Shown here piece after piece: positions 14,510-22,486 of a stretch of DNA of 32,113 nt. Numbering within the stretch: the first letter of the stretch is position 1; every line of letters begins with the position of its first letter. The stretch spans positions 1 through 32,113 of the forward strand of contig JANXYH010000009.1 in the NCBI GenBank assembly GCA_025350145.1, written 5' to 3'. Made by a program: the position numbers and the translations under genes. A model generated the notes under the pieces. It was not told the DNA's origin, did not search any database, and was given only the letters and a program-made list of their open reading frames with translations. This stretch comes from Burkholderiales bacterium (lineage in GTDB: Bacteria > Pseudomonadota > Gammaproteobacteria > Burkholderiales > Burkholderiaceae_C).

Positions 14510-15678
14510 GTGCCCTGGCCACCACCTGGGTGATCTTCAGCAAGGAGCTGCGCGACGCCCTGCGCGACCGGCGAACGCTGCTGGCGGTGGCGCTGTCTTC
14601 GTTGCTGCTCGGGCCGCTGCTGTTGGTGCTGCTGTCGGCGCTGGTGGCCACGCTGGAGGAGCGCGCCCAGTCGCGCGAGGTGGTCATCGCCGGCATCGAC
14701 CATGGCCCGACCCTGGCCAACTTTCTGCAGCGCCAGGGGCTGCTGCTCAGGCCCGCGCCGGCCGACTTCGAGCAGGCCTTGGTGGAACGGCGCCTGGGCG
14801 ACGCGGTGCTGGTGATCCCGCCCGGCTTCGATGCCGACCTGGCGGCCGGGCTGCGCCCCACCCTGCTGTTGGTCGGCGCCACCGGCAACACCCGCGCCAG
14901 CGGCACCCAGGGCCGGCTGCGGCAACTGCTGCAGGCCTTCAACCAGGAGCAGGCGACGCTGCGTCTGGCGCTGCGTGGCGTCGCGCCGGTGCTATTGGAG
15001 GCCATCCGGGTCGACGAACGTGACCTGGCCGAGCCGCGCGCGCGCTCGGCCCAGCTCACCGCGATGCTGCCCTGCCTGGTGCTGATGGCGGTGCTCTATG
15101 GCGCGCTGGCGGCGGCCCTGGACAGCACCGCCGGCGAGCGTGAACGCGGCAGCCTGGAGCCGTTGCTGAGCAACCCCGCGCCGCGCGGGGCGATCGTGGT
15201 CGGCAAATGGGCCGCCGTGGCCTGCGTCAGCATGCTGGTGGCGACCCTGTCGTCGCTGAGCTTCTTGCCCGGCCAGTGGCTGCTGCGCAGCCAGAGCCTG
15301 GCGGCGCTGTTCCAGTACGGTCCGCGCGAGGCCGGGCTGTTCATCGCCCTGCTGCTGCCCTTGGCCGGGCTGCTGTCGGCGCTGCTGATGGCGCTGGCAA
15401 TCCGCTGCCGCAGCGTCAAGCAGGCCCAGGCCAACGCCGCCCTGCTGCTGTTGCTGGTGTCGCTGGCGCCACTGCTGTCGCTGCTGAATGTCGAGGCCGA
15501 GCAGCCCTGGCAGTTGGCCGTGCCGGCGCTGGCGCAAGTCACCCTGATGGGCCGGGTGCTGCGCGGCGAGGCGCTGCCGGCCATGGACCTGCTGCTGCCC
15601 CTGGGCGTGACCCTGCTGCTGACGCTGCTGTGCCTGGTCGACCTGGCGCGGCAACTGCGCTCGGCCACGGCCAATTGA
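14506..15678 (+). CDS. natB: ABC-2 type transporter permease, NatB-like
   Basis: The 390-residue membrane protein has the NatB/ABC-2 topology. A cytoplasmic start FSKELRDALRDRRTL is followed by a first membrane helix (about 25-48) and an extracytoplasmic domain of roughly 130 residues (50-185). A block of about five helices follows (LTAMLPCLVLMAVLYGALAAAL onwards), with the short cytoplasmic motif GERERGSLEPLLSNP. This last motif is characteristic of NatB-type permeases. It overlaps the ATPase gene by 4 bases. With one ATPase and one permease the complex would be a homodimer of each half. The neighbouring secreted hydrolase suggests a peptide, lipid or antimicrobial substrate, but that is inference. 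Confidence 0.87.
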   Translation: MSALATTWVIFSKELRDALRDRRTLLAVALSSLLLGPLLLVLLSALVATLEERAQSREVVIAGIDHGPTLANFLQRQGLLLRPAPADFEQALVERRLGDAVLVIPPGFDADLAAGLRPTLLLVGATGNTRASGTQGRLRQLLQAFNQEQATLRLALRGVAPVLLEAIRVDERDLAEPRARSAQLTAMLPCLVLMAVLYGALAAALDSTAGERERGSLEPLLSNPAPRGAIVVGKWAAVACVSMLVATLSSLSFLPGQWLLRSQSLAALFQYGPREAGLFIALLLPLAGLLSALLMALAIRCRSVKQAQANAALLLLLVSLAPLLSLLNVEAEQPWQLAVPALAQVTLMGRVLRGEALPAMDLLLPLGVTLLLTLLCLVDLARQLRSATAN

Positions 15679-15705
15679 CTTGGCTATCGACGACCAAGAT
15701 CAAAT

Positions 15706-15733
15706 AGCGCCAGTCATGGCCTGGTCTGGCGCT
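15706..15733. terminator. Hairpin between converging genes, possible bidirectional terminator
   Basis: AGCGCCAG (15706-15713) and CTGGCGCT (15726-15733) form a perfect 8-bp stem with a 12-base loop. It lies between the natB stop and the end of the Cys-cluster gene, whose TGA lies in the loop. There is no clear T-tract on the natB side, so classical intrinsic termination is uncertain. Confidence 0.45.
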
Positions 15734-15968
15734 CCAACCGCGACAGCCACAGCATCGCCTGGTCGCGGTTGTCGCCGCACATCTCGGCGGATGGGCGCAG
15801 GCCGGTGCACACCGCCGGCCGCTCGGGTCGGCCGAACAATCGGCAGCGCAGCGCCTGGTCGAGTTGCGGGCAGGCGACCCCGGCGGGCTTGCCGCCGGGC
15901 AGGCCGGGAATGGGCGAACTGATAGACGGGGCGGTGCAGCAGGCGGCGCAACCGGGGCGGCAGTACAT
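15714..15968 (-). CDS. Small YkgJ-family cysteine-cluster protein
   Basis: The 84-residue product has the YkgJ/UPF0153 pattern: [11 protein letters not shown] at the N-terminus, then [32 protein letters not shown] and AEMC. Cysteines fall at 3, 7, 10, 11, 33, 42, 54 and 64, a set thought to bind zinc or an iron-sulfur cluster. Family function is not known. The length is normal for the short betaproteobacterial version. The ATG at 15968 is the only sensible start, with no strong ribosome site before it. It is divergent from mnmG, whose promoter-like TACAAT lies 47 bases away, and converges with natB. Confidence 0.82.
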
Positions 15969-16014
15969 CGGCGGCGACAGTCCATCGGGTGGGTCGGGCC
16001 AGGCCCGGGGTTTT

Positions 16015-16020
16015 TACAAT
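16015..16020 (+). promoter_or_regulatory. Promoter -10 element (TACAAT) for mnmG
   Basis: TACAAT in GTTTTTACAATAGCG lies 35 bases upstream of the mnmG ATG, at a normal distance from the AGGAGG ribosome site. It is close to the sigma-70 consensus. The -35 region is G+C-rich and unclear. Confidence 0.5.
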
Positions 16021-16040
16021 AGCGGGTTTTTGATTCGATC

Positions 16041-16046
16041 AGGAGG
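16041..16046 (+). promoter_or_regulatory. mnmG ribosome binding site (AGGAGG)
   Basis: This is the strongest Shine-Dalgarno noticed in the window. It is 6 bases from GTG (16053) and 9 from the adjacent ATG (16056), which favours the ATG. Confidence 0.7.
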
Positions 16047-16055
16047 CCCACCGTG

Positions 16056-18032
16056 ATGCATCCCCAGACTTTTGACGTGATCGTCGTCGGCGGCGGCCAT
16101 GCCGGGACCGAGGCCGCGCTGGCGGCGGCGCGGATGGGTTGCACCACCCTGCTGCTGAGCCACAACATCGAGACGCTGGGGCAGATGAGCTGCAACCCGT
16201 CGATTGGCGGCATCGGCAAGGGCCATCTGGTCAAGGAGGTCGACGCGCTGGGCGGAGCGATGGCGCTGGCCACCGACGCGGCCGGGATCCAGTTCCGCAT
16301 CCTCAATTCAAGCAAGGGCCCGGCGGTGCGCGCCACCCGCGCCCAGGCCGACCGGCTGCTGTACAAGGCGGCGATCCGGCACCGGCTGGAGAACCAGCCC
16401 AATCTGTGGCTGTTCCAGCAGGCGGTGGACGACCTGATGGTCGAATCCGACGGCCAGTGCGACCGCGTCAGCGGCGCGGTCACGCAGTCCGGCATCGCCT
16501 TTGCCGCGCGCAGCGTGGTGCTGACCGCCGGCACCTTTCTCGGCGGCCTGGTCCATGTCGGCCTGCAAAGCCATGCCGCCGGGCGGGCCGGCGATCCGCC
16601 CGCGAACACGCTCTCGGCCCGGCTGAGGGCGCTGAAGTTGCCGCAGGGGCGGCTCAAGACCGGCACGCCGCCACGGCTGGACGGGCGCAGCATTGATTTC
16701 AGCAAATTGCAGGCCCAGCCGGGCGACAGCGGGCCGCTGCCGGCGTTCAGCTTCATCGGCGACAGCGCCATGCACCCGGCCCAATTGCCCTGCTGGATCA
16801 CCCACACCAATGCCCGCACCCACGAAATCATCCGCTCCGGCTTTGACCGCAGCCCGATGTTCACCGGCGTGATCGATGGCGTTGGCCCGCGCTACTGCCC
16901 GAGCATCGAGGACAAGGTCAACCGCTTCGCCGACAAAGATTCGCACCAGATCTTTCTCGAGCCCGAGGGCCTGACGACGCATGAGTTCTATCCCAACGGC
17001 ATTTCGACCTCGCTGCCGTTCGACATTCAGTTGGCCGCAGTGCGCTCGATGTGCGGGCTGGAACAGGCCCACATCCTGCGCCCCGGCTACGCCATCGAGT
17101 ACGACTTCTTCGATCCGCGTGAACTCAAGTCCAGCTTCGAGACACGCTCGATCGCCGGACTGTTCTTTGCCGGCCAGATCAACGGCACCACCGGCTATGA
17201 AGAAGCGGCGGCGCAGGGCCTCTACGCCGGGATCAACGCGGCGCGCCAGGCCAAGGGTCAAGCCGCAGTCAGCCTCGGCCGCGACCAGGCCTATCTGGGC
17301 GTGCTGGTCGATGACCTGATCACCAAGGGCGTCACCGAGCCCTACCGCATGTTCACCAGCCGGGCCGAATACCGGCTGCAACTGCGCGAGGACAACGCCG
17401 ACGCCCGCCTGACCGACCTGGGCCGCAGCCTGGGCCTGGTCGACGATGCGCGCTGGAATGCCTTCAGCCGCAAGCGCGACGCGGTTGCGGCACAGATGCA
17501 GGCGCTGCGCAGCACCTGGGTCAATCCGGCGCTGTTGGCCGCCGCCGACGCCGAGCGCCTGCTGGGCAAGGCCATCGAGCATGAATACAGCCTGGCCGAA
17601 CTGCTGCGCCGGCCGGGCGTGCGCTTTGACACGGTTGCCGAGATTTCGCGCCTGGCCAGGCCCGGCCAGCCCGCTGTTTCACGTGAAACATTGGCCGCCG
17701 AACTGGGTGACAAGGTCTTGGCCGACACCGTGATCGAGCAGGCGGAAATCATCAGCAAGTACGCCGGCTACATCGACAAACAGGTCGAGGAAGTCGAACG
17801 AACGGCACACCATGAGCAGCTCAAATTGCCCGCCGATCTGGACTACAGCAGCGTCACCGCGCTGAGCTATGAGGTGCGGCAGAAGCTGGGGCGGCAGCGC
17901 CCCGAAACGCTGGGCCAGGCCTCGCGCATCTCGGGCGTGACGCCGGCCGCCATCTCGCTGCTGTTGGTGCACCTGAAGAAGCGCCGTCTCAGCAGCGTCG
18001 CCACGCCTGCCGACCTGCCGGATGCCGCGTGA
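16056..18032 (+). CDS. mnmG: tRNA U34 carboxymethylaminomethyl-modifying enzyme, MnmG subunit
   Basis: MnmG (GidA) is an FAD protein that works with MnmE to modify wobble uridine 34 of several tRNAs. The 658-residue product has the Rossmann motif [12 protein letters not shown] near the start, the family signatures [23 protein letters not shown] and [11 protein letters not shown], and [21 protein letters not shown]. The C-terminal helical domain that contacts MnmE and tRNA ends in [21 protein letters not shown]. Length is normal. The start is ATG 16056, or GTG 16053 immediately before it. Its stop overlaps the rsmG GTG (GTGA). A complete parS site is written into codons 540-545 (AVSRET), so the gene is also a segregation landmark. 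Confidence 0.96.
17675..17690. other. parS: parS centromere site 1, inside mnmG
   Basis: The sequence TGTTTCACGTGAAACA is a perfect 16-bp palindrome and a full match to the consensus parS (TGTTNCACGTGAAACA) bound by chromosomal ParB. It codes for part of MnmG (VSRET). It is 3.9 kb upstream of parB. Confidence 0.95.
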
Positions 18033-18691
18033 GCATTCCGGCCAACGACGCCCGCGCCAAGCTCAGGCAAGCCAGCGACACCCTGGCATTGGCATTGACC
18101 GACACCGCCATTGAGCAACTGCTCGGCTTTTTGAACCTGCTGCTGCGCTGGACCCAGGTCTACAACCTGACCGCATTGCGCCAACCCGAGCAGGTGCTGA
18201 GCCACCACCTGCTGGACTGTCTGGCGGTATTGCCCCCGCTGCGCCGCTGGGCCCATGGCCGGGCGCTGCGGATTCTGGATGTAGGCAGCGGCGGCGGACT
18301 GCCCGGCGTGGTGCTGGCGATCGCCGAGCCCGGCTGGCGGCTGGACTGCGTAGACGCGGTGGCGAAGAAGGCTGGCTTCATCCGCCAGGTCGCGGCGGAG
18401 CTGGCCCTGCCCCTGCTGCACAGCCACCATGCCAGGGTCGAGGCCATGGTGCCGGACGGGCACGATCTGCTCATATCCAGAGCCTTCGCCTCGCTCGCCG
18501 ATTTCACAAGATTGACGGCACACATGCTGCCGAACGCAGGCGCCTGGCTGGCGATGAAAGGCCAGCCAAGCCAGGCCGAGCTGGCCGAATTGCCGCCCAG
18601 TTTGTCGGTGTTTCACGTGGAACAACTTCAAGTCCCGACGCTGGATGCGCAACGCTGCCTGGTCTGGATCCAGCGAACGCCAAGCGCCTGA
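18029..18691 (+). CDS. rsmG: 16S rRNA (guanine-N7)-methyltransferase RsmG
   Basis: RsmG (GidB) methylates G527 of 16S rRNA using S-adenosylmethionine. The 220-residue product has the family N-terminal region [13 protein letters not shown] with the [13 protein letters not shown] helix. The SAM-binding motif is [16 protein letters not shown] (82-97), followed by [15 protein letters not shown] and [10 protein letters not shown]. It starts with GTG at 18029 overlapping the mnmG stop, so the two are coupled. Length is normal. A second parS site occupies codons 194-199 (SVFHVEQ region), in the poorly conserved C-terminal part. Loss of RsmG is known to give low-level streptomycin resistance in other bacteria. 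Confidence 0.95.
18609..18624. other. parS: parS centromere site 2, inside rsmG
   Basis: The sequence TGTTTCACGTGGAACA differs from the perfect palindrome at one position. Read on the minus strand it is TGTTCCACGTGAAACA, which fits the consensus with N = C. It codes for FHVEQ in RsmG and lies 919 bases after site 1 and 117 bases before the parA start. Confidence 0.92.
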
Positions 18692-18725
18692 GCGACTTGG
18701 ATCGCAAGGCGCTGGGGCCTGCGGC

Positions 18726-18731
18726 GATACT
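18726..18731 (+). promoter_or_regulatory. Promoter -10 element (GATACT) for parA
   Basis: GATACT ends 9 bases before the parA ATG at 18741, and there is no Shine-Dalgarno between them. If real, the parA message would be leaderless or nearly so. parA could also be read from the mnmG-rsmG transcript. Confidence 0.35.
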
Positions 18732-18740
18732 CCCGGCACC

Positions 18741-19577
18741 ATGTACAAAGCCTTTTGTATAGCCAATCAAAAGGGCGGCGTCGGCAAGACGACGACCACG
18801 GTCAACCTCGCCGCCGGCCTTGCGCAACTGAAGCAGCGGGTGCTGGTGGTCGACCTTGACCCCCAGGGCAACGCGACCATGGGCTCTGGCGTGGACAAGC
18901 GGGCCATGCCCCTGTCGGTCTACGACGTGCTGCTGGAAACTGCCAGCATTGCCGAGACGCGACAGCGGTCTGCGCTGGGCGGCTATGACGTGGTCGGCGC
19001 CAACCGCGAACTCGCCGGGGCCGAGATTGAACTGGTCGGCCTGCCGCGCCGCCACGAGCGCCTGCGCGACGCCATGCTCGCGGTGCAGGCCGACTACGAC
19101 GTGGTGCTGATCGACTGCCCGCCATCGCTGAGCCTGCTGACGCTCAATGGCCTGTGCAGCGCCCATGGTGTGCTGGTGCCTATGCAGTGCGAATACTTTG
19201 CGCTCGAAGGCCTGTCGGACCTGGTCAACACCATCAAGCAGGTGCACGCCAACCTCAACCGCGATCTTCAGGTGATCGGCCTGCTGCGGGTGATGTTCGA
19301 TCCGCGCATCACCCTGCAGCAGCAGGTCAGTGAGCAGCTCAAGGCGCACTTCGGCGACAAGCTGTTCAACAGCGTGATCCCACGCAACGTGCGCCTGGCC
19401 GAGGCGCCCAGCTATGGCCAGGCCGGGGTGGTGTTCGACCCATCCTCCAAGGGCGCCCTGGCCTACGTCGAATTTGCCCACGAGTTGCTGGCGCGGATAA
19501 CCCTAACCCCGGCTGCACCGGCTGCGCCGACTGCGCCGACTGCACCGACTGCACAGGCCAGGGCCAGGAAGAAGTGA
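18741..19577 (+). CDS. parA: Chromosome-partitioning ATPase ParA
   Basis: ParA binds DNA non-specifically as an ATP dimer and pulls ParB-parS complexes apart during segregation. The 278-residue protein has the deviant Walker A KGGVGKTTTTVNLA with Lys11 and Lys16, the A-prime box VLVVDLDPQGNAT, Walker B VVLIDCPPSLS, and the C-terminal signature VRLAEAPSYGQ. It has no extra N-terminal helix-turn-helix, so it is the chromosomal (Soj, type Ib) form. The ATG at 18741 starts right at the fold; the frame is open to 18645 but that overlaps rsmG. The last 25 residues are a low-complexity APTAPTAPTA tail from a 9-bp repeat. The stop overlaps the GNAT start. Confidence 0.95.
   Translation: MYKAFCIANQKGGVGKTTTTVNLAAGLAQLKQRVLVVDLDPQGNATMGSGVDKRAMPLSVYDVLLETASIAETRQRSALGGYDVVGANRELAGAEIELVGLPRRHERLRDAMLAVQADYDVVLIDCPPSLSLLTLNGLCSAHGVLVPMQCEYFALEGLSDLVNTIKQVHANLNRDLQVIGLLRVMFDPRITLQQQVSEQLKAHFGDKLFNSVIPRNVRLAEAPSYGQAGVVFDPSSKGALAYVEFAHELLARITLTPAAPAAPTAPTAPTAQARARKK
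19514..19555 (+). repeat. 9-bp tandem repeat at the parA 3' end
   Basis: Four imperfect copies of an (A/G)CCG(A/G)CTGC unit in a row give AAPAAPTAPTAPTAQ at the ParA C-terminus. The unit is a multiple of three and keeps the frame. The tail lies outside the ATPase fold. Confidence 0.6.
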
Positions 19578-20365
19578 TCCCGGCCCTGCCGCCGGGCATT
19601 GACGCGAACCTGCTGTCGCGGGTCGAAGATGCCGGACTGAACGCCAGCGCGCCGCCCCAGCAGCGCTGGGTGGACGGCTGGCTGCTGCGCTTCTGCCCGG
19701 GCCAGGCACGGCGGTCGCGCTGCATCCAGCCGGTGGCCGCCGGTCGACTGGGCAATGCCCAACGCCTGGCGCTGTGCGAGGCGGTGTTCGCCGAGGCCAG
19801 GCTGCCGCTGCTGGTGCGCATCACGCCCTTCAGCCAGCCCAGCGGGCTGGGCCAGTGGCTGCATGGCCTGGGACTGCAGCGCCTGGACGAATCGCGGGTC
19901 ATGGTCAGCACCGCGCTGCCCAGCGCCGCGCCGCCGCTGCCGCCTGGCACCCGCCTGGAGGCGGTGGACGCCGCGCGTTATGCCGAGGTGGTGGGCGGCA
20001 TGCGCGGCTCTACCGCGGCGCAGCGCCTGGGGCATGCCCAGCGCCTGGCGCTGTCGCCGGTGCCGTACCACGGCTGGCTGCTGCGGCGCGTCGACGACGG
20101 CCAGATCCTGGCCTGTGCCCAGACCGCCGTTGAAGCCGACATGGTCGGCCTTTACGACGTCTTCACCGCCAGCCAGGCGCGCGGCCAGGGCCTGGCCGGT
20201 GTGCTGTGTGCGACGCTGCTGGCTCAGACAGCCTCAGGCGGCGCCAGGCTGGCCTACCTGCAGGTCGGCGCGGACAACGGCAGCGCGATCCGGGTCTACC
20301 GCCGGCTCGGCTTCGCCGACGCCTACGGCTACCACTATCTGGCCCGCGACCCGCAGGCCGCCTGA
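19574..20365 (+). CDS. GNAT-family N-acetyltransferase
   Basis: The 263-residue protein has a GNAT domain in its C-terminal half: the strand MVGLYDVFTASQ, acetyl-CoA pyrophosphate loop ARGQGLAG (a version of Q/RxxGxG/A), then LQVGADNGSAIRVYRRLGFADAYGYHYL, the typical motif B. The first 130 residues (WVDGWLLRFCPGQARRSRCIQP) look like a second, degenerate GNAT half, as in tandem GNAT proteins. The acetyl acceptor is unknown. It starts with GTG at 19574 overlapping the parA TGA (GTGA), so it is co-translated with parA, and it separates parA from parB. The stop falls at the left edge of a 105-bp inverted repeat. Confidence 0.82.
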   Translation: MIPALPPGIDANLLSRVEDAGLNASAPPQQRWVDGWLLRFCPGQARRSRCIQPVAAGRLGNAQRLALCEAVFAEARLPLLVRITPFSQPSGLGQWLHGLGLQRLDESRVMVSTALPSAAPPLPPGTRLEAVDAARYAEVVGGMRGSTAAQRLGHAQRLALSPVPYHGWLLRRVDDGQILACAQTAVEADMVGLYDVFTASQARGQGLAGVLCATLLAQTASGGARLAYLQVGADNGSAIRVYRRLGFADAYGYHYLARDPQAA

Positions 20366-20469
20366 TACGGTCTCGCATTCAACGCGCTAACCGCGTTGCT
20401 TCGCCTCGCCGTGCCAGTGCACTGTCTTCGGCTTCGCGCCTTGTTATCGCATCGAATACGAAACCGTAT
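20365..20469. repeat. 105-bp imperfect inverted repeat with palindromic core between converging genes
   Basis: The left arm is 20365-20391 and the right arm 20443-20469. They match as inverted repeats at 22 of 27 positions. Outer ends read ATACGGT and ACCGTAT, and inner ends are CTAAC and GTTAT. Four of the five mismatches become G.U or G.T wobble pairs when the minus strand folds. The centre holds a perfect palindrome CAGTGCACTG (20415-20424). A small hairpin AACGCG/CGCGTT (20381-20397) is nested on the left. It fills the gap between the GNAT and argC stops. It may be a bidirectional terminator, a dispersed repeat or an attC-like recombination site. Confidence 0.65.
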
Positions 20470-20479
20470 GAATCGGAGG

Positions 20480-21439
20480 CTACAACCCCAGCCCTTCGTC
20501 CAGCCCCAGGTGCAGGTTCATGCACTGCACCGCCGCGCCACTGGCGCCCTTGCCGAGGTTGTCGAGCCGGGCCATCAACACCGCCTGGCTGGCATTGGCA
20601 AACACGAACAGCTCGCAGCGGTTGCTGCCGTTGCAGGCCTGGACATCGAAGTAGCCGGCGTCGGTCAGCGTCGCCGGGTCGCTGGACAGCGGCATGACGC
20701 GGACGAAGCGCTCGTCGGCATAGTGCGCGGCCAGCGCCCGGTGGATCGTGGCCGCATCCGTGCCGCCCCTGAGTTGCGACAGATGTAAGGGCACGCTCAC
20801 TGCCATGCCCTTGTAAAACCTGGCAATGATGGGCATGAACACCGGCGCCTGGCGCAAGCCGGTGTGGGCCACCATCTCGGGCAGGTGCTTGTGCGCCAGG
20901 CCCAGGGCGTACGGCCGCGGGGCCTGCAGCCTGGCATCGGCCGGATCGTCGCCACCGCCTTCGTAGCTGGCGATCATGGCCTTGCCGCCGCCCGAATAGC
21001 CGGTGAGCGAGGTCGCACTGAGCAGCAAATCGGCGCCGACGATGCCGGCGTCGAGCAGCGGGCGCAGCAGCAGGACGAAGCCGCTGGCGTGGCAGCCGGG
21101 GTTGGCGATGCGCTTGGCGCCACGCAGCGCCCGGCGCTGGCCAGGCGACAGCTCCGGCAGCCCGTAGACCCAGCCCGGTGCCGTGCGGTGGGCGCTGCTG
21201 GCGTCGATCACGCAGGTGCCGGGGTTGTCGACCAGGGCCACCGCCTCGCGCGCGGCCGCGTCGGGCAGGCACAGGAAGGCGACATCGGCGGCGTTGAGCA
21301 GCCGCGCCCGCTCGGCCGCGTTCTTGCGCAATTCGGGATCGATGCGCAGCACCTCGATGTCGCTGCGGCGGGCCAGCATCTCGTGGATCTGGAGGCCGGT
21401 CGTGCCCTCTTGTCCGTCAACGAAGATGCGGTAGGTCAT
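20480..21439 (-). CDS. argC: N-acetyl-gamma-glutamyl-phosphate reductase, type 2
   Basis: ArgC reduces N-acetylglutamyl phosphate to the semialdehyde with NADPH in arginine synthesis. The 319-residue length and the start MTYRIFVDGQEGTTGLQIHEML are those of the shorter type 2 family. The nucleotide motif is GQEGTTGLQI (9-18). Catalytic Cys116 sits in IANPGCHASGF, and substrate-site residues are seen in TGYSGGGK and GLAHKHLPEM. The ATG at 21439 has AGGA 8 bases upstream. The frame is open far upstream (to 22408), but that is antisense to parB and is rejected. The gene lies alone on the minus strand between GNAT and parB, an unusual place for an arginine gene. Confidence 0.93.
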   Translation of the reverse strand: MTYRIFVDGQEGTTGLQIHEMLARRSDIEVLRIDPELRKNAAERARLLNAADVAFLCLPDAAAREAVALVDNPGTCVIDASSAHRTAPGWVYGLPELSPGQRRALRGAKRIANPGCHASGFVLLLRPLLDAGIVGADLLLSATSLTGYSGGGKAMIASYEGGGDDPADARLQAPRPYALGLAHKHLPEMVAHTGLRQAPVFMPIIARFYKGMAVSVPLHLSQLRGGTDAATIHRALAAHYADERFVRVMPLSSDPATLTDAGYFDVQACNGSNRCELFVFANASQAVLMARLDNLGKGASGAAVQCMNLHLGLDEGLGL

Positions 21440-21556
21440 GGCGGATCCTGGTGGCCAGGGCTTGCCCTGGCGGCGGTATCGGGTTGGTGCAAACCCGCGA
21501 GTATGCGGCAGGCGCGACCGGCACTGCCGGCGGGCCGCCGCGGCGGCAATCTGGCC

Positions 21557-21562
21557 GACAAT
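21557..21562 (+). promoter_or_regulatory. Promoter -10 element (GACAAT) for parB
   Basis: GACAAT (context GGCCGACAATCC) ends 9 bases before the parB ATG at 21572 with no ribosome site between. It lies in the 132-base divergent gap with argC. parB needs its own promoter because argC interrupts the operon. Confidence 0.45.
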
Positions 21563-21571
21563 CCCGCCCCT

Positions 21572-22486
21572 ATGGCGACCAAGAAACCCAAGGGCCTGGG
21601 GCTGGGCCTGGAGGCACTGCTGGGCCCGCGGGTCAGCGACACCGCCGCCGCGCCCTCGGCCTACCCGACCACGCTCAAGCTCGACCAGTTGCGCGCCGGC
21701 AAGTACCAGCCGCGCACCCGCATGGACGAGGGCTCGCTCTACGAACTGGCCGAGAGCATCAAGAGCCAGGGCCTGATGCAGCCCATCCTGGTGCGCCCGC
21801 TGGGCCCATCGGACAAGGCTGCGGGTGCCGGTGCCTACGAAATCATCGCCGGTGAGCGGCGCTTCCGTGCCGCCCGTCTGGCCGGTCTGGACGAGGTGCC
21901 GGTGCTGGTCCGGGCTGTGGCCGACGAGGCCGCCGCCGTGATGGCGCTGATCGAGAACATCCAGCGCGAGGACCTGAATCCGCTCGAAGAAGCGCAGGGC
22001 CTGCAACGCCTGGTCGACGAGTTCAAGCTCACCCATGAGCAGGCGGCGCAGGCGGTCGGGCGCTCGCGCAGTGCCGCCAGCAACCTGCTGCGGCTGCTGA
22101 ACCTGGCCGCGCCGGTACAGCAGATGCTGCTGGCCGGCGATATGGACATGGGCCATGCCCGGGCACTGCTGCCGCTGGACCCAGCCCAGCAGATCCTCAC
22201 CGCGACCGAGATCGTGGCCAAGAAGCTGAGCGTGCGCGAGGCCGAGAAGCTGGTCGCCCGCAGCACCACGCTCGGCCGGCAGGCGCCGCTGCTGCGGGCC
22301 AAGCCGCAGAAATCTGGCGACGTGCGCCGGCTCGAGGAGCAACTGGCCGACGCGCTGGCGGCCACGGTCGAGATCCGCATCAGCCGCAAGACCCGGCGCG
22401 GCGAGCAAGGCGAGGTGGCGATTGCCTTTGCCTCGCTCGACGAGTTGGGCGGCCTGCTCGACAAGCTCGGGATCCGTGAGCGCTGA
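21572..22486 (+). CDS. parB: Chromosome-partitioning protein ParB (Spo0J family)
   Basis: ParB is a CTP-dependent DNA clamp that loads at parS and spreads. The 304-residue protein begins KKPKGLGLGLEALLG, the conserved ParA-activating N-terminus. It then has the CTP-binding boxes GERRFRAA (94-101) and ENIQRED (128-134). A helix-turn-helix (about 153-174, EQAAQAVGRSRSAASNLLRLL) recognises parS. A C-terminal dimerisation domain ends DELGGLLDKLGI. All motifs are intact and the length is typical. The ATG at 21572 starts the conserved N-terminus; the long open frame upstream is antisense to argC. parA is 2 kb away, beyond GNAT and argC. Confidence 0.95.
   Translation: MATKKPKGLGLGLEALLGPRVSDTAAAPSAYPTTLKLDQLRAGKYQPRTRMDEGSLYELAESIKSQGLMQPILVRPLGPSDKAAGAGAYEIIAGERRFRAARLAGLDEVPVLVRAVADEAAAVMALIENIQREDLNPLEEAQGLQRLVDEFKLTHEQAAQAVGRSRSAASNLLRLLNLAAPVQQMLLAGDMDMGHARALLPLDPAQQILTATEIVAKKLSVREAEKLVARSTTLGRQAPLLRAKPQKSGDVRRLEEQLADALAATVEIRISRKTRRGEQGEVAIAFASLDELGGLLDKLGIRER

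Follow-up and report, generated by a model that had tools for sequence, protein, structure and literature searches.

Probable chromosomal parS sites in conserved coding positions of mnmG and rsmG in a family of Burkholderiales

According to our analysis, two 16-bp palindromes in the window, as we call the whole stretch of 32,113 nucleotides analyzed here, are very probably chromosomal parS centromere sites (probability of about 0.93), with ParB binding and chromosome segregation carried over from established ParABS biology. One palindrome (site B) lies inside mnmG and the other (site C) inside rsmG. In both genes the DNA site appears to drive the encoded residues, a conclusion that is well supported by the codons in which these residues are written across the family. 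The presence of parS in genes is already known; the case described here is an ordinary centromere whose position within genes is conserved to an unusual degree.

The two sites and their presumed reader

Site B (TGTTTCACGTGAAACA) and site C (TGTTTCACGTGGAACA) both match the consensus TGTTNCACGTGNAACA with 0 mismatches, and both have the central hexamer CACGTG, which sets them apart from the Noc binding site (NBS), the center of which is CCCGGG. Site B is read as xxT GTT TCA CGT GAA ACA, which gives residues 541 to 545 of MnmG (numbered from the ATG at 16056), and site C as xTG TTT CAC GTG GAA CAA, which gives residues 195 to 199 of RsmG. An earlier note on this DNA had reported two consensus parS sites in these genes, and its coordinates proved right. 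It had also placed the second site on the minus strand, where the site does fit, but not exclusively: the pattern is its own reverse complement, and site C therefore fits both strands. Given the base composition, exact sites are expected 1.5e-5 times per window and 0.002 times per genome. When up to 3 mismatches are allowed, the window still yields just these two matches; shuffled versions contain 0.47 on average and two or more in 7 of 100 cases, so that the significance is carried by exactness. A genome-wide parS scan of the assembly to which the window belongs (4.56 Mb, 211 contigs, 98% complete) returned sites B and C as the sole matches with at most 1 mismatch, while a reversed control pattern gave 2 matches at the same threshold, neither of them exact.

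Table 1. Predicted parS sites and genes of the par region (positions in the window)
Feature	Position	Strand	Remarks
Predicted parS site B	17675..17690	.	Codes VSRET of MnmG, variable linker
Predicted parS site C	18609..18624	.	Codes FHVEQ of RsmG
Place of site A	17483..17498	.	Empty in the window: GGTTGCGGCACAGATG, 9 mismatches, protein VAAQM
mnmG (gidA), tRNA uridine modification enzyme	16053..18032	+	TIGR00136, 852.8 bits (cut-off 524.85); hosts site B
rsmG (gidB), 16S rRNA methyltransferase	18029..18691	+	TIGR00138, 139.7 bits (cut-off 99.5); hosts site C
parA, partition ATPase	18741..19577	+	Best match NF041546, 1.3e-29; KGGVGKT in translation
GNAT acetyltransferase ORF	19574..20365	+	Between parA and parB; NF049894, 5.9e-19, below cut-off
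argC	20480..21439	-	Between parA and parB; TIGR01851, 434.9 bits (cut-off 229.85)
parB, presumed reader of sites B and C	21572..22486	+	TIGR00180, 179.7 bits (cut-off 58.45)

The gene order in the window is mnmG, rsmG, parA, the GNAT ORF, argC on the opposite strand, and parB, and mnmG has two candidate starts (GTG at 16053 or ATG at 16056). As had been pointed out earlier, the sites lie just upstream of parA, the start of which is 116 bases past site C. The parA product gave ParA-type matches in the profile search, all of them below curated cut-offs. The parA-parB gap in the window (19574 to 21572, about 2 kb) is filled by the GNAT ORF and argC; among the 74 loci with both genes, window included, the gap was below 300 bases in 40 and above 1,500 bases in 9, the window being one of the latter. 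A search for tRNA genes in the window found none.

Alignment to 6t1f showed that R166 and G194 of the window's ParB correspond to R173 and G201 of Caulobacter ParB. These two Caulobacter residues are reported to be absolutely conserved among extant ParB orthologues, and they belong to the set of four by which parS reading is told apart from NBS reading (PMC7383237). At the six DNA-contact residues that the same source gives as common to ParB and Noc, the window's ParB differs in two, with Q162 replaced by H and K171 by R. We considered and rejected a reading of the palindromes as Noc binding sites, since the reader would need Q173 and R201 (Caulobacter numbering), and these places are taken by R and G in the ParB of the window. 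With regard to the setting that PMC7022226 gives for chromosomal parS, the window's sites lie at a par locus, and dnaA is on another contig.

On the parS reading, each palindrome would be bound by the ParB encoded at this locus, which would then form a CTP-dependent clamp and slide outward across mnmG-rsmG-parA, building a partition complex that ParA would move. Loading of SMC is a further role of this complex in other bacteria. Selection for ParB binding would fix the DNA, with the MnmG linker taking VSRET and the RsmG strand taking FHVEQ. At position 12, where ParB makes no choice between A and G, the base would depend on which residue the host protein tolerates. The earlier suggestion of a ParB loading zone agrees with the canonical sites, the ParB family member, the adjacent parA and the family-wide conservation, and we regard such a role as probable.

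Occurrence in the family and the order

The family sample comprised 120 genomes from 119 genera. The mnmG-rsmG stretch from 117 of them and the window make up a set of 118 loci, from which G095 (mnmG partial) and G105 (mnmG not found) were left out. The exact 16-mer was found in 87 of the 120 genomes, and the control pattern had one match in one genome. A 14-base core pattern, with positions 1, 16, 5, and 12 left free, was present anywhere in 118 of the 120 genomes, the two without it being G095 and G105. In these 118 genomes, 284 of the 361 core sites lie within mnmG or rsmG, and in 74 genomes all of them do; part of the 361 may be due to chance, since the control pattern had 36 matches over the 120 genomes (table count), and one site counted as lying elsewhere is perhaps inside the fragmentary mnmG of L232 (G003). 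The number of core sites per genome is 2 to 5 in 116 of the 118; G036 and G044 have unusually many, with 12 and 9. A core site is found in mnmG in 115 of the 118 loci, in rsmG in 109 and in either gene in 116, and a coding core site in these two genes is absent only from L119 and L148.

Three places recur in the alignments, namely, A in a conserved MnmG stretch (KRDAVSRETERL), B in the MnmG linker after RRPxV and C in the C-terminal strand of RsmG. Site A is present in 96 of 117 family genomes and site B in 78 of 117. For site C, the fetched stretch includes rsmG in 116 genomes, and 107 of these have a core site at its column. Being related by descent, the genomes do not represent independent events in these counts. 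In three genomes, a site that reads FHVK occurs elsewhere in rsmG. The window and a relative from the same genus have B and C and lack A.

A second sample consisted of 80 contigs picked for the similarity of their MnmG, the search peptides being free of VSRET; its genomes possibly overlap with those of the 118 loci, and the two samples were tallied separately. With the window added and up to 2 mismatches allowed, site A was found in 50 of 81 loci, site B in 33 of 81 and site C in 39 of 79, and all 80 loci had at least one site at this threshold in the fetched stretch. Site A is present in the loci recorded as Burkholderia, Paraburkholderia, Caballeronia, Pandoraea, and Trinickia, while those of Massilia, Janthinobacterium, Duganella, and similar genera have none in mnmG and carry sites upstream of mnmG instead. 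Across the order, the core was absent from 8 of 200 genomes. In other families of the order we observed clusters of parS cores, with 13 at a spacing of about 205 to 226 bases in G196 (C61:134635-137276) and 4 at a spacing of exactly 389 bases in G158 (C1:396580-397760).

Codons, reading frames, and rival explanations

In the MnmG proteins of the family VSRE occurs 172 times, and in 170 cases it is written GTT TCA CGT GAA, against an expectation of 0.05 from per-gene codon usage. The shares of these codons among their synonyms in the window's mnmG are 0.12 for GTT, 0.05 for TCA and 0.07 for CGT, and when the 664 scored mnmG columns are ranked for unexpectedly rare codons, the first nine places all go to parS columns. 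All 107 cases of FHVE in RsmG have parS-compatible codons, with 13 expected; these codons are common ones, which makes the rsmG codon test weaker than that of mnmG. Under the rare-codon ranking the rsmG columns showed no clear-cut order, and VFHV and FHVE are the two most codon-conserved of its 46 runs of four. In the second sample, 81 of 81 VSRE were parS-compatible, as were 39 of 39 FHVE if one with TTC, a codon within the consensus, is included. Relatives that keep the residues in codons that break the palindrome, which the earlier note had named as grounds for refutation, are just two of the 172 cases for VSRE, namely, L206, which is fully recoded (GTG TCG CGC GAA ACC), and L181, which differs in one base (GTA TCA CGT GAA ACA), and there is none for FHVE.

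Relatives without the site mostly have other residues at its place. Where site A is missing, we found VARET, IERET, VAREA, and others, with VSRET in L206 only; this locus (G090) may represent a centromere site that has been lost while the protein has yet to change. Seven rsmG rows lack a site anywhere in the gene; they read LSRIEPL, T-QVQTL, VTGVQPL, VFHIEPL, and VVHVEPL at place C, the remaining two being gapped. The linker at site B is often shorter in loci lacking the site, and the MnmG of 3cp2, from E. coli, is shorter by 4 and 13 residues near it. Since the parS codons are nearly invariant and site-less relatives mostly carry other residues, the residues appear to follow the DNA site, and the claim of the earlier note that the letters of MnmG and RsmG bend to it is well supported at the level of codons and alignments.

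The converse explanation, that a protein need conserves VSRET and FHVE and that the palindrome is a by-product of their coding, draws on the structural setting of the sites. In the RsmG model (pLDDT 94.9), FHVEQ is inside an ordered beta strand spanning residues 192 to 200. The model of full-length MnmG is of low quality (mean pLDDT 48.3), and only its better C-terminal blocks (residues 451 to 570, means of 70 to 91) were used, with caution; there, the place of site A falls within a predicted helix (464 to 486), and VSRET of site B runs from the last part of a coil into a helix (543 to 550). The earlier statement that both sites are in less conserved C-terminal parts requires correction for site C, which is in a strand predicted with confidence and not in a loose tail. 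L206, with VSRET in other codons, also fits a protein need. However, it is the only genome without site A to retain VSRET there, and the same pentapeptide recurs at a second place of MnmG, where the linker varies in length. Such a need also does not account for the avoidance of synonymous codons, and we rejected it on the codon test, giving it hardly any credence.

It could also be that the sites are true parS but that their coding position is passive, with sites having arisen at random near parA and their loss still pending. The sites are indeed gained and lost: a rough tree (a quick FastTree of the N-terminal part of MnmG, with row L232 left out and the three sites at the other rsmG position included in C) requires a minimum of 16 changes for A, 32 for B, and 8 for C, and the lineages with sites upstream of mnmG fit this as well. 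Yet the rare codons are kept at the sites above anywhere else in mnmG and nearly every genome of the set has at least one coding site, which argues for selection for keeping the sites and makes a passive position very unlikely. As for the CACGTG palindromes serving another DNA-binding protein, for instance, a regulator of mnmG-rsmG-parA, the short distance from site C to parA is suggestive, and a weak parA promoter has been placed inside gidB in Pseudomonas aeruginosa (PMC3909081). We deem such a regulator highly improbable, however, since the full 16-bp parS consensus is matched beyond the core hexamer and ParB is encoded nearby; moreover, a scan of positions 15600 to 21700 found no sigma-70-like promoter, which in GC-rich DNA is a weak test.

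The parS reading also accommodates the way in which the palindrome is read by its host genes. Its three frames translate as CFT-stop-N, xFHVK, and xVSRET, and a G at position 12 turns these into CFTWN, xFHVE, and xVSRGT. Because one frame of the symmetric palindrome holds a stop codon, only some of the readings are possible. Each host gene keeps to a single frame, which is the VSRET frame for all 174 sites in mnmG and the FHV frame for all 110 in rsmG. At position 12, an A is found in 171 of the mnmG sites and a G in 107 of those in rsmG, while the 26 sites upstream of mnmG have either base (20 A, 6 G). For parSc1 of Burkholderia, symmetrical changes were reported to be tolerated for binding only at positions 1/16 and as a transition at 5/12, along with certain single-arm changes (PMC5450999), and these positions are the ones left free in our core pattern. 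Since position 12 splits by gene and the 5/12 transition kept binding in Burkholderia, it appears to be the host gene that decides which of the variants permitted by ParB is used at this position.

Chromosomal setting, known systems, and meaning

The earlier note had also suggested that oriC is close. Going by relatives, this is only loosely right, at the scale of the chromosome and not within the window: the sole dnaA over the cut-off is on another contig (C129), and the GC skew of the window has no clear switch, so that we rejected an oriC inside it. Among the sampled relatives, 25 have the locus on a contig of 2.28 Mb or longer; in these, the distance between mnmG and dnaA ranges from 15 kb to 1.01 Mb, with a median of 86 kb, which corresponds to 2.2% of the contig when it is treated as circular. 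In 23 of the 25 it is within 300 kb, and likewise 23 are within 10% of the contig, the other two being at 12.9% and 27.8%. In G051 and G015, mnmG is 623 kb and 1.01 Mb from dnaA, possibly through rearrangement or misassembly; the RsmG peptide of G051 at site C is FHIEP, with no core site (L172).

The locus resembles known chromosomal parS/ParB systems (Spo0J/ParB family) in its 16-bp palindrome, in the equivalents of R173 and G201 and in the adjacent parA, and gidA/gidB surroundings are usual for chromosomal ParB (PMC10653881). It differs from them in that the sites occupy the same codon positions of mnmG and rsmG throughout a family. In P. aeruginosa, 9 of 10 parS are most likely within coding sequence, as here, and they were mutated without changing the coding sequence; the passages concerned do not discuss mnmG/rsmG or conservation of the encoded peptides (PMC4368675). 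Coding parS sites have also been described inside parB, both in the chromosome 2 and plasmid systems of Burkholderia cenocepacia, where the chromosome 2 site was disrupted by a silent mutation (PMC4948915), and in Bacillus subtilis, as parS-359 (PMC4442127); in these two species, unlike here, the host is the partition gene itself. The coding parS of repABC replicons were suggested to be positively selected even there (PMC9040568), although these are chromid or megaplasmid systems and, in contrast to our analysis, the passages on them contain no codon-level test. Our literature search, by title and start of abstract, found no report of parS inside mnmG/gidA or rsmG/gidB; the survey of Livny et al. 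(2007) lay outside its scope, and prior publication is possible.

In a wider reading, the centromere of the family would lie mostly, and in the majority of the genomes sampled wholly, in two RNA-modification genes, imposing residues on their products, among them a pentapeptide of a variable linker, and ParB sliding out from inside the operon may tune the expression of mnmG-rsmG-parA. The residue-imposing part of this reading is well supported. The tuning is a conjecture, and the wider reading as a whole is doubtful; we lowered its odds somewhat because, according to unpublished data mentioned in PMC3909081, neither ParA nor ParB was seen to regulate the gidA and parA promoters of P. aeruginosa in E. 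coli. If true, such tuning would tie chromosome segregation to tRNA and rRNA modification.

The sites are a clear natural example of a DNA-binding site dictating protein sequence, with the same pentapeptide at two places of one enzyme as a result of a DNA need and with the free base of the centromere following the reading frame. VSRET and FHVE thus call for caution before such strings are treated as functional protein motifs, and synonymous recoding of them would be a direct way to gauge the strength of selection on a bacterial centromere.
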